From Aliidiomarina sanyensis (GTDB taxonomy: Bacteria > Pseudomonadota > Gammaproteobacteria > Enterobacterales > Alteromonadaceae), in the NCBI RefSeq assembly GCF_003987175.1, contig NZ_PIPM01000002.1, positions 124,001 through 188,000 of the forward strand: a stretch of DNA of 64,000 nucleotides, in the 5' to 3' direction. Under the pieces are notes generated by a model. That model had not been told where the DNA came from and searched no databases. It saw only the letters and a list, made by a program, of their open reading frames with translations. This document shows, piece by piece, positions 36,919 to 39,125 of the stretch (its first letter is position 1; each line of letters opens with the position of its first letter). The position numbers and the translations under genes are program-made.

Positions 36919-36995
36919 GCGCCCGTAGCTCAGCTGGATAGAGCGCTGCCCTCCGGAGGCAGAGGTCAGAGGTTCGAATCCTCTCGGGCGCGCCA
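36919..36995 (+). tRNA. tRNA-Arg (anticodon CCG)
   Basis: A 77-base cloverleaf with encoded CCA. Acceptor GCGCCCG pairs with CGGGCGC, the D arm is GCTCAGCTGGATAGAGC, the anticodon loop is CTCCGGA (anticodon CCG, reading CGG), and the T loop is GGTTCGAATCC. It is followed by a strong terminator. Bases 36939-36977 recur at 39087-39125 just after hipA. Confidence 0.97.
36939..36977 (+). repeat. Left copy of a 39-base direct repeat (inside tRNA-Arg), putative att site
   Basis: From the end of the D arm to the T loop of tRNA-Arg. It matches 39087-39125 at 38 of 39 positions, the only difference being T at 36966 against C at 39114. Together the copies bracket the hipBA module. Confidence 0.75.
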
Positions 36996-37002
36996 GAACG
37001 TG

Positions 37003-37029
37003 AAAACCCTCCCTTGCGGAGGGTTTTTT
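37003..37029 (+). terminator. Terminator after tRNA-Arg
   Basis: A 10-bp stem (AAAACCCTCC / GGAGGGTTTT) with loop CTTGC and a six-T run, 7 bases after the tRNA CCA end. Confidence 0.92.
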
Positions 37030-37038
37030 CGTTTGTAG

Positions 37039-37075
37039 CCAACGCACCGCGTTGGTGCCGCACTTAAGATGCGGC
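37039..37075. repeat. REP-like palindrome copy 2 with adjoining hairpin
   Basis: CCAACGC-ACC-GCGTTGG (37039-37055) is the same palindrome core as at 23458 and 41502, preceded by GTAG as in the third copy read on its reverse strand. It is followed at once by a second hairpin, GCCGCA / TGCGGC around the 7-base loop CTTAAGA (37057-37075), which looks like an anticodon arm with TAA in the middle. Confidence 0.55.
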
Positions 37076-37077
37076 CC

Positions 37078-37092
37078 TTCAATCCTCTCGGG
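37078..37092 (+). repeat. Short copy of the tRNA-Arg 3' end
   Basis: TTCAATCCTCTCGGG resembles the T loop and 3' acceptor side of the tRNA (TTCGAATCCTCTCGGG at 36973-36988) with one base missing. It may be a remnant of an earlier insertion or of a duplicated tRNA. The rest of 37093-37376 is AT-rich and shows no gene. Confidence 0.4.
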
Positions 37093-37376
37093 TACGTCAT
37101 GCATAGCAAGTTCTTAGCCGATAGTTCCCACTCACTCAAACTCCCTGTGTGTCCAAATTGTGGCTCAAATTTCCGTTCGTTTTCATCAATCGTACTTGAT
37201 GGACCTCTAGCCACAAAAAATTAGGTAATGACCTTTCCCCTGAAATAACACCACATTTTCAATGAGACTTTAGTTTTTATGCCGCCTGTTTTCCCTAATC
37301 AGCAGGCGCGCCATTCTTGCCCTTCGACTCATTACTCTACATGATATCGCTGAACGGCTCGAATGAAATTGCAGTT

Positions 37377-37444
37377 TACGCTATGACGTAAAAATTGACA
37401 TTTTACTTTGTAGCGTATATTCTTCCATTTTACCCTGTAGCGTA
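37377..37444 (+). promoter_or_regulatory. Three operator-like repeats upstream of hipBA
   Basis: TACGCTATGACGTAAAA (37377-37393) is the near reverse complement of TTTTACTTTGTAGCGTA (37401-37417), which recurs as TTTTACCCTGTAGCGTA (37428-37444). This arrangement of one inverted and one direct copy, 75-140 bases before hipB, fits cooperative binding by the HipB dimer and autoregulation. The sequence differs from the E. coli hip operator TATCC-N8-GGATA. Confidence 0.55.
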
Positions 37445-37517
37445 TAAAGTAAAAATTACGCCAAACCGTCTTTAATCGCGTTGGCTAGTAAACATTACAC
37501 TTCGGAGCAGCCGAATT

Positions 37518-37772
37518 ATGAACATCACGCGACCTGAACAGCTTAGTACCTTTGTTAAAGACTACCGCATGAAGCAAAGTCTAACCCAGACTGATATTGC
37601 GAAGCTTGTCGGTATTCGGGTGGCCACTATTTCAAACTTTGAGAACAGACCTGAAACCTGTAAGTTAGAAACTGTTTTCAAAATCATGGCCGCCCTGAAC
37701 CTGAGAATTGACATCGCGACCCGAAGCGAAGAGCCCGCAGAAGGCACCCCTCAATGGAATGAAGGGTGGTAA
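37518..37772 (+). CDS. hipB: HipB-like antitoxin, XRE-family repressor
   Basis: An 84-residue DNA-binding protein. The helix-turn-helix occupies about residues 20-42 (LTQTDIAKLVGIRVATISNFE), followed by the family segment ETVFKIMAALNLRIDI. Length and layout match E. coli HipB (88 residues), which neutralises HipA and represses the operon. An RBS-like GGAG lies 10 bases before ATG 37518. hipA starts 3 bases after its stop, so the two are coupled. The C-terminal tail ends in NEGW; in E. coli HipB the C-terminal Trp contacts HipA, so the terminal Trp here fits a true antitoxin. Confidence 0.9.
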   Translation: MNITRPEQLSTFVKDYRMKQSLTQTDIAKLVGIRVATISNFENRPETCKLETVFKIMAALNLRIDIATRSEEPAEGTPQWNEGW

Positions 37773-37775
37773 CGA

Positions 37776-39089
37776 ATGCAGAAGCTCGATCTATACATGA
37801 ATGGAATCAAGGTTGGTGAATATACTCAAGCGCGGAGTGGCGCTAATCATTTCAGTTATGACAAGGTATGGCTTGAGTCTCCGGGGCGGCGGAGTATCTC
37901 TTTGTCTTTGCCACTTCGCGCCGCGCCTTTCTCAGGGCCTGAGGTCTACAATTACTTTGACAACCTCATCCCCGACAATCGTGAAATTCGTGAACGCGTT
38001 GCCGCTCGCTTTCATACAAGATCAACGGAGCCATTTGATATTCTCGCGGAAATTGGGCGTGATTGCGTCGGGGCTATTCAGCTCATCCCGCACGGCTCGC
38101 CAGCACCCAATGTTAAGCGTATTGAAGCGACCCCGCTTACCGATAAAAACGTCGCAGAAATACTAAAGGGATATCAATCAAAAGCGCCATTAGGGATGAT
38201 AGAAAAGACCGCTGACTTTCGTATCTCGCTCGCCGGTGCACAAGAGAAAACGGCCTTACTTTTTCACCGCGGGGAATGGCATTTACCGCTTGGTGCAACA
38301 CCAACCACTCATATTATCAAATTGCCCATTGGTGAAATTAAGTCTCACGACCGCTTGATTGACATGACCCACAGTGTTGAAAATGAATACTTGTGTTTAA
38401 AAATTGCCAAAGCTTACGGGTTTGAAGCGGCTGACTGTGAGATCATCACCCCCGATAATATGAAGGCACTCGCTGTCAAACGCTTTGATCGAAAGCTCAG
38501 CTCGGACGGCACTTGGATTATGCGGCTACCACAAGAAGATTTTTGTCAGGTCACAGCCACATCACCAGCCAGAAAATATGAATCCGATGGTGGCCCAACA
38601 ATCTTAACAATCATGAATGAGCTTTTAGGCTCAAGCAATCCAACCAAGGATCGTCGCATCTTCATGCGCGCACAAGTTCTGTTTTGGCTATTGGGCGCAA
38701 CCGATGGTCACGCAAAGAACTTTTCAATTTTTATCGAACGACAAAATCAATATTGTCTCACTCCGCTTTACGATATTTTGTCAGCATTTCCAGCTTTAAG
38801 TAAAAAGGGCTTACACGAAAAAGATCTCAAACTAGCCATGTCACTCAGAGGTCGTCAAGGCAGAAAGTATGAGTGCCGTATGATTCGTCGCAGACACTTC
38901 CTGCAAACCGCAAGAGAAATAGGCTTTAGCGAAGAGTCTATGCATGAAATACTGGATGAAATGGCCGCGCTAACCGAAAGCGTCATACAGAAAGTTACTG
39001 ATGAGTTACCTGCTGAATTCCCAAGCCATATTGCTGAACCCATTTTCGAAGGAATGCGCAGATATGCACGGAAACTAATCGGTGACTAG
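37776..39089 (+). CDS. hipA: HipA toxin, Ser/Thr kinase
   Basis: A 437-residue kinase (E. coli HipA has 440) that phosphorylates glutamyl-tRNA synthetase and stops translation. Key residues line up with E. coli HipA: autophosphorylation Ser151 in RISLAGAQEKTALL, ATP-binding Lys182 in HIIKLPIGEIKSHDRL, catalytic loop GATDGHAKNFSI, and metal-binding Asp in LTPLYDILSA. The protein appears fully active. Its stop codon TAG (39087-39089) is formed by the first three bases of the right-hand tRNA-like repeat, so the coding sequence ends exactly at the insertion boundary. It is in an operon with hipB. No integrase is present between the repeats. Confidence 0.93.
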   Translation: MQKLDLYMNGIKVGEYTQARSGANHFSYDKVWLESPGRRSISLSLPLRAAPFSGPEVYNYFDNLIPDNREIRERVAARFHTRSTEPFDILAEIGRDCVGAIQLIPHGSPAPNVKRIEATPLTDKNVAEILKGYQSKAPLGMIEKTADFRISLAGAQEKTALLFHRGEWHLPLGATPTTHIIKLPIGEIKSHDRLIDMTHSVENEYLCLKIAKAYGFEAADCEIITPDNMKALAVKRFDRKLSSDGTWIMRLPQEDFCQVTATSPARKYESDGGPTILTIMNELLGSSNPTKDRRIFMRAQVLFWLLGATDGHAKNFSIFIERQNQYCLTPLYDILSAFPALSKKGLHEKDLKLAMSLRGRQGRKYECRMIRRRHFLQTAREIGFSEESMHEILDEMAALTESVIQKVTDELPAEFPSHIAEPIFEGMRRYARKLIGD

Positions 39090-39125
39090 AGCGCTGCCCT
39101 CCGGAGGCAGAGGCCAGAGGTTCGA
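39087..39125 (+). repeat. Right copy of the 39-base tRNA-Arg repeat, putative att site
   Basis: Copy of tRNA-Arg bases 36939-36977 with a single mismatch, lacking both acceptor halves, so it cannot be a tRNA. It supplies the hipA stop codon. After the T-loop GTTCGA the sequence diverges completely from the tRNA. Confidence 0.75.

Follow-up and report, generated by a model that had tools for sequence, protein, structure and literature searches.

A hipBA toxin-antitoxin module between pieces of tRNA-Arg(CCG) in Aliidiomarina sanyensis, probably a relic of integrated mobile elements

Introduction

Staphylococcal cassette chromosome (SCC) arrays and the toxin-antitoxin cassettes of superintegrons are tandem units bounded by attachment (att) sites, some of them without a recombinase, in which toxin-antitoxin pairs have a stabilising role. 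In E. coli, the HipA kinase is stable and its antitoxin HipB is short-lived. Here we analyze a hipBA toxin-antitoxin pair located between two copies of part of tRNA-Arg(CCG) in a 64,000-nucleotide stretch of the Aliidiomarina sanyensis genome (GCF_003987175.1, contig NZ_PIPM01000002.1, positions 124,001 to 188,000), hereafter the window, which is a portion of contig C12 in a genome of 2.59 Mb and 47 contigs. We consider it probable that this pair is the leftover of one or more mobile elements integrated at tRNA-Arg(CCG), a relic in which the toxin-antitoxin module resisted loss. Unlike SCC arrays and superintegrons, the group to which the window belongs uses the anticodon arm of a tRNA as target and a tyrosine integrase.

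Cis-mobilizable elements (CIMEs) are described as decayed integrative and conjugative or integrative and mobilizable elements (ICEs and IMEs) that keep attL and attR and are found in tandem accretions, following an accretion-and-decay route (PMC5704250). By that description the hipBA unit is CIME-like, since it lies between repeats that are probably att-derived, without integrase or transfer genes, and relatives show tandem elements at the site. It differs in that both of its att copies are damaged, in that an ICE or IME is no more than a possible ancestor, and in that the leftover cargo at tRNA-Arg(CCG) is repeatedly a toxin-antitoxin pair. In Shewanella putrefaciens CN-32, HipAB was shown to protect a composite tRNA-Trp island (CGI48 / GI21) from loss, which was seen only without hipAB (PMC8978831). 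There too a HipA-family pair sits at a tRNA in a composite island, but the Shewanella island is 48 kb long with integrases, occupies tRNA-Trp, has hipA before hipB, and encodes a HipA described as barely similar to E. coli HipA (PMC8978831).

Among the papers listed in a literature search of limited coverage, judged by title and opening of the abstract, none dealt with tRNA-bounded toxin-antitoxin arrays of this kind. What adds interest to a CIME-like relic with HipBA is that, across several genera, toxin-antitoxin genes turn up again and again between tRNA pieces at a single site. If our reading is right, the locus displays what island decay leaves behind, an addiction module between att scars, repeatedly at one tRNA, and offers natural tests of whether chromosomal toxin-antitoxin pairs persist by punishing their own loss and whether pairs flanked by att sites remain mobile when they lack an integrase.

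Results

The hipBA module and its flanking tRNA copies

The original prediction, made from the letters of the window, that a 39-base stretch of tRNA-Arg(CCG) is repeated after hipA was borne out: tRNA positions 21-59 (36939-36977) form a direct repeat with 39087-39125, with 1 of 39 bases mismatched, so that the far end of the unit carries a repeat of part of the tRNA, as in a tRNA-targeted integrative island (Table 1). As also predicted, the hipA stop codon TAG (39087-39089) can be read from the sequence as the opening three bases of the tRNA copy. We scanned the whole genome for the 39-mer with up to 3 mismatches and found it at just these two places, with 0 matches for a reversed-pattern control, which rules out a chance repeat. 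A general genomic repeat, which had been named as grounds for rejecting an attachment site, is ruled out by the same scan, and the hairpin spacer that follows the right copy has one match genome-wide when 3 mismatches are allowed.

By its predicted products the pair is a type II HipBA module, with a helix-turn-helix (HTH) antitoxin upstream of a kinase with the Pfam domains Couple_hipA and HipA_C. HipB matches the NCBIfam HipB model at 1.7e-20, yet its score of 72.8 bits is below the cut-off of 79. HipA matches the E. coli HipA structure 2wiu over nearly its full length (E 5.9e-130) and has in common with it FRIS.AGAQEKTALL and GATDGHAKNFS, which we take to have a catalytic role. The order hipB-hipA is also that of E. 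coli, with a kinase similar nearly end to end, but the window pair differs in sitting between tRNA pieces with the hipA stop in a tRNA copy. Repeated GTAGCGTATA-type sites at 37375-37480 are probably HipB operators accompanied by the hipBA promoter, and relatives have similar repeats in front of hipB. Of the open reading frames (ORFs) of the unit, small overlapping ones aside, only hipB and hipA were assigned to a family, and the unit encodes no site-specific integrase, which a tRNA-targeted integrative island would have. A viral origin was rejected, the viral collection having yielded 1 relative (42% identical), as was a substrate link between HipA and tRNA-Arg, which nothing in the data supports.

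Table 1. Features of the tRNA-Arg(CCG) and hipBA locus, in window coordinates
Feature	Position	Strand	Basis or remark
Intact tRNA-Arg(CCG), integration target	36919..36995	+	ARAGORN
Intrinsic terminator of the tRNA (inverted repeat, then T run)	36996..37033	+	inverted repeat I10
REP-like near-palindrome GTAGCCAACGCNNCGCGTTGG	37035..37055	+	206 to 387 genome copies
Decayed piece of the tRNA 3' end (~19 bases)	37079..37099	+	family D10; probably the left limit of the hipBA unit
Left end in common with P. insulisalsae	37083..37177	+	67% over 95 bp, E 3.8e-8
Repeated GTAGCGTATA-type sites, probably HipB operators, with probable hipBA promoter	37375..37480	+	read from sequence
hipB antitoxin, 84 aa	37518..37772	+	Pfam HTH_3 2.3e-10
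hipA toxin kinase, 437 aa	37776..39089	+	intact open frame; stop codon inside the tRNA copy
Second tRNA-Arg copy, positions 21-59 (att-derived remnant)	39087..39125	+	
AGGTTCGA fusion point and hairpin spacer normally behind tRNA-Arg(CCG)	39118..39151	+	one genome match

Toxin-antitoxin modules recur between pieces of tRNA-Arg(CCG)

We compared 17 genomes of the genus Aliidiomarina including the window's own (denoted G, with contigs C and loci L; G005 is presumed to be A. maris), all of which (17/17) have a match to the tRNA-Arg(CCG) gene. When 30 stretches of 5-20 kb around tRNA-Arg(CCG) and hipA genes (545 kb, the window's included) were scanned with the tRNA as a query, 42 matches with E <=0.02 were obtained, whole tRNAs counted; the reversed query had 0, and 50 shuffles averaged 0.02. 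Within these stretches we retrieved the segments of 0.2-10 kb between consecutive tRNA pieces after discarding gaps below 0.2 kb; this count leaves out segments above 10 kb in G001, G007, G009 and G014 and a tRNA piece on G013:C72. Nine segments resulted (window, G003, G004 on C33, two in A. maris, G006, two in G011, and G014), and all nine contain a HipA_C or AbiEii match, against an expectation of 0.04 (28.3 kb; based on 59 HipA_C and 13 AbiEii matches across the 17 genomes). By ORF listing, 7/9 segments are 1.9-3.2 kb long, each with a toxin-antitoxin pair and no more than one further gene of 90 aa or longer; extra cargo is present in G003 (6.7 kb, with a metal ATPase-like and a transporter-like ORF identified by eye) and in G006 (4.8 kb). 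By hand count, 14 of the 59 HipA_C matches (in 11/17 genomes) and 3 of the 13 AbiEii matches have a tRNA-Arg(CCG) piece no more than 10 kb away.

The association extends beyond the genus. A HipA search across the order returned a match in 132 of 394 genomes (loci L121-L148 were scanned for integrase only). The public loci whose HipA reaches 69% identity or more (L149-L163, n=15) come from Aliidiomarina, Pseudidiomarina, Idiomarina, Lacimicrobium, Arsukibacterium, Alishewanella, Rheinheimera and Alkalimonas, and those at 53-57% form a second set (L164-L190, n=27). Within up to 10 kb on either side, contig ends shortening some loci, tRNA-Arg(CCG) or a piece of it is near HipA at 10 of the 15 closer loci vs 1 of the 27 more distant ones. 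In Pseudidiomarina taiwanensis (L158 5591-11305), AbiE, a tRNA-Arg piece (28-77), a second AbiE and hipBA follow one another, and P. halophila carries a distant AbiE (33-40%), a 16-base tRNA piece (E 0.04) and hipBA.

Several of these modules are far more alike across species than a core gene, for which we used the DEAD helicase. AbiEii proteins of G004 and A. maris are 95% identical vs 73% for DEAD, and HipA-like proteins of G003 and G009 are 93% identical vs 77%. At the DNA level, AbiE of G004 and A. maris is 90% identical over 2194 bp, ending one base beyond the tRNA 3' end; AbiE of A. maris and P. taiwanensis is 93% identical over 2125 bp, ending just beyond the core; and hipBA of G011 and P. 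taiwanensis is 92% identical over 1634 bp, stopping two bases ahead of the hipA stop. The window and A. maris are 86.7% identical over 37312-39116. Cargo other than the window's hipBA between equivalent repeats, which the original prediction had named as support for mobility, is thus found in relatives as AbiE and other HipA-like pairs.

tRNA-Arg(CCG) is an integration hotspot in Aliidiomarina

Halves of the tRNA starting in the anticodon arm (CTGCCCTCCGGAGG...) sit kilobases downstream of the gene past unrelated DNA, most of these pieces beginning at tRNA position 28 to 36. A right-arm motif, ATATACCGATT, precedes the core at the end of the G014 island, at the end of the G014 hipBA segment, in G009 and in G003, and is missing from the pieces in G004, G006, G007 and G011. 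On the left, CCA is followed by TCAAAGGCTT in G004, A. maris, G007, G009, G014 and G015. In G007, G009, G014, G015 and G016, the 5' half of tRNA-Arg stands 42-44 bp ahead of a complete tRNA; islands at this site therefore seem to import a complete replacement tRNA and not merely its 3' end. These half-then-complete sites are on the reverse complement of L062 1424-1594 and L063 18340-18510, and at L083 2845-3014, L089 2644-2814 and L080 3247-3417.

A family of tyrosine integrases occupies the islands at tRNA-Arg(CCG). Its genes are 4-14 kb from the tRNA in G001, G009, G014 and G015 (4/17 genomes) and their products are 65-82% identical. G004:C33 carries a second integrase, and G007 has another one ~5 kb upstream of the tRNA (C22:59773) that did not match the hotspot family at 1e-10. 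The search for integrases near similar repeats, proposed at the outset as a way to identify the mover, thus gave a candidate family in relatives and none in the window's genome: its three PF00589 matches are at C1, C45 and C8, and no cognate integrase was found among them, C8 alone having been compared with the hotspot family. A resident integrase acting in trans was rejected on these grounds, the C8 candidate (C8:1970) being judged unlikely at 22-27% identity to the family, and the C1 and C45 proteins (the two strongest matches, not compared) being presumed XerC/XerD.

The right copy lacks a 3' end and the left border is probably a decayed tRNA piece

In the window's right copy, tRNA sequence is joined to the spacer usually found downstream of the tRNA, at an 8-base identity, AGGTTCGA, present both in the T arm and in the spacer. 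The right copy reads AGAGGTTCGA and then directly CAAAACGGGTGGAAGCCGTTTTGGAC, and the bases past it (CAAAACGG...CCGTTTTGGAC) are those of the spacer behind tRNA-Arg(CCG) in relatives. In G002, G003 and G004 the tRNA is followed by its terminator, a AGGTTCGACAAAACGGCAGGAAGCCGTTTTGGAC spacer (with one paired change in G004) and, ~150 bp past the tRNA, a 19-base copy of the tRNA 3' end. Because AGGTTCGA occurs in both places, a deletion running from one to the other would remove exactly the tRNA 3' end and the terminator, and the fusion at this sequence therefore suggests that such a deletion probably took the 3' end. An identical fusion is found 3' of hipA in Pseudidiomarina piscicola. That the unusual extent of the repeat is a property of the mover is not supported, the missing 3' end fitting a later deletion at AGGTTCGA.

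The terminator, hairpin spacer and 19-base tRNA 3' end are kept as far as Alishewanella (L159 and L160, ~9110-9332), and in Rudaea (L223) a comparable hairpin stands behind a T-arm-like stretch. The repeat downstream of E. coli tyrT resembles this arrangement and also ends in a 19-base tRNA 3' end; a literature search on this point gave nothing useful.

On the left side, the intact tRNA had been taken as the end of the unit. It retains its own terminator, similar to those behind tRNA 3' ends in G001, G002, G003, G004, G009 and G014, and is therefore unlikely to be the left end; the border is probably the decayed tRNA 3' end at 37079-37099, of which 37081-37099, between the intact tRNA and hipB, matches at 84% (16/19 bases). 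The P. insulisalsae match starts within the last 17 bases of that species' intact tRNA and then continues. Because of the left terminator, the decayed 3' end and this match, the hipBA unit is best drawn from ~37079 to 39125. Of the two repeats taken as att-derived, the right is clear and the left decayed, and both are without the arms seen at other elements. The bracketed stretch had been said to hold only hipB, hipA, their operators and AT-rich DNA; it does hold hipBA, while its first part is made of the tRNA terminator, a REP-like repeat and the tRNA remnant.

Distribution and transfer of hipBA

Full-length HipA above 50% identity occurs in 6/16 other genus genomes; G013 has a decayed hipA copy at the locus itself, and G004 has one no more than 10 kb away. 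We built a HipA tree of 28 rows, including 4/27 of L164-L190, in which 7/25 inner branches are open. Its pairs are window/A. maris (100/100), G011/P. taiwanensis (100/100), G006/Lacimicrobium (99/95) and G009/G014 (100/99). The DEAD-helicase tree groups the window, G015, G002, G011 and A. maris (99/98), with the order inside unresolved. HipA and DEAD identities are 72 and 86% for window/G011, and 94 and 83% for G009/G014. From these trees and identities, hipBA was clearly transferred in the case of G011, and likely so in that of G009/G014.

The comparison of the locus in relatives, as suggested in the original prediction, revealed four states among the five DEAD-grouped species. The window and A. 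maris carry hipBA of one clade; G011 carries hipBA of another clade with a second HipA-like pair; G002 carries a distant hipBA (42%); and G015 carries an integrase island, with no close HipA within 18 kb up to the contig end. The result that would have marked the arrangement as old and vertical, namely hipBA at the same place in all relatives, was not obtained, hipBA being patchy and its tree in conflict with the core gene. In G006, hipBA (L079 9365-10939; HipA 72%) adjoins tRNA-Met(CAT) at 9119-9195, the 3' flank of which, CCATTTTTAAAGGCTTTCC, resembles the left arm of elements at tRNA-Arg, and is possibly the same unit at another tRNA.

Origin of the hipBA unit

The original prediction offered a minimal mobile cassette or the remainder of a larger island; it was right in kind, the tests it proposed favour mobility, and the remainder is the best reading. 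Elements with the hotspot integrase family would recombine in the palindromic anticodon stem, CCTCCGGAGG, a core suggested by the starts of the tRNA pieces, and could stack in tandem at tRNA-Arg(CCG). Integrase and other cargo would then be deleted, and the toxin-antitoxin module would survive, we propose, because its loss is penalised, freeing a stable HipA kinase that outlasts the short-lived HipB. Slippage deletion between the two AGGTTCGA copies would strip the right copy of its tRNA 3' end. With both att copies damaged and no cognate integrase identified in the genome, the relic has probably lost the ability to excise.

Several observations weigh against this reading. The right copy starts at position 21, 5' of the usual 28-36, for which crossover in the anticodon alone is insufficient, and the left tRNA 3' end is short (16/19). 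Among the six genomes with full-length HipA above 50%, the gene is flanked by tRNA-Arg pieces only in A. maris, G011 and G014; the G006 copy is beside tRNA-Met, the G007 copy sits on a contig of 7.5 kb and the G009 copy is at the start of its contig. HipA and DEAD identities of 88 and 85% for window/A. maris fit vertical descent, as do those for window/G006 (72 and 71%), G007/G009 (76 and 72%) and G008/G010 (97 and 100%), so that vertical descent is an equally good fit for the window/A. maris pair and several more. No hotspot-family integrase was found in the window or the examined sequence of the 15 hipBA loci at or above 69%, near which other integrase families were not sought, nor in the 25 kb examined of G007, its 21-kb segment included, and no intact island with the window's exact hipBA clade was found.

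The alternative that holds up best, though we regard it as unlikely, is that these are minimal cassettes, that is 2-3 kb toxin-antitoxin units with att ends and without an integrase, moved at tRNA-Arg(CCG) by the integrase of a resident island acting in trans and forming exchangeable tandem arrays. The size and content of 7/9 segments fit such units, as do the right-arm motif common to the G014 hipBA segment and the adjacent integrase island, and the short AbiE blocks (90% in G004/A. maris, 93% in A. maris/P. taiwanensis), each with one end at the tRNA 3' end or past the core. However, in A. maris the other end of the AbiE blocks is away from any tRNA piece, the G011/P. taiwanensis hipBA block halts before the hipA stop and excludes the tRNA pieces, and the window unit is without both arms. 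In its broadest form, with tRNA-Arg(CCG) of Idiomarinaceae and neighbours as an integron-like toxin-antitoxin cassette array whose 2-3 kb integrase-less units are limited by anticodon-to-3'-end pieces and moved among species by a trans integrase, this proposal is doubtful to the same degree.

Less probable still is homologous recombination, in which incoming DNA would be exchanged via tRNA-Arg and its flanks, swapping the adjoining cargo with no site-specific step for the small units. Repeated tRNA pieces and the conserved terminator and spacer would offer the homology, and the common blocks end at the tRNA on one side or neither, but many pieces start within the anticodon arm, preceded by non-tRNA DNA, and several have an arm motif in common, as site-specific recombination predicts. 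A local accident, with hipBA vertically inherited between the copies of a plain tandem tRNA duplication, would suit the agreement of HipA and core divergence in window/A. maris and the tRNA's usual downstream spacer behind the right copy, but is very improbable given the patchy, tree-conflicting hipBA, AbiE pairs at tRNA-Arg(CCG) that are much closer across species than the core gene, and the 9/9 toxin-bearing segments.

Other features of the loci

Besides the integrase, the regions at G001:C5:306259, G009:C7:720881, G014:C3:156226 and G015:C6:1865 (L072, L064, L066 and L062) contain an ORF of 912-1077 aa, diverse among islands, with a weak phage-integrase domain match (two of them below the Pfam cut-off). 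In P. insulisalsae (L157 11182-13613), hipA is apparently broken near codon 394 by ~2.4 kb of inserted DNA. The near-palindrome resembling a repetitive extragenic palindrome (REP) next to the tRNA terminator has 206 + 181 matches on the two genome strands at up to 2 mismatches, given as 206 to 387 copies because one site may match on both strands. It is also found at 41502-41522 of the window, and its genome copies are often in tandem with a spacing of ~35-171 bp.

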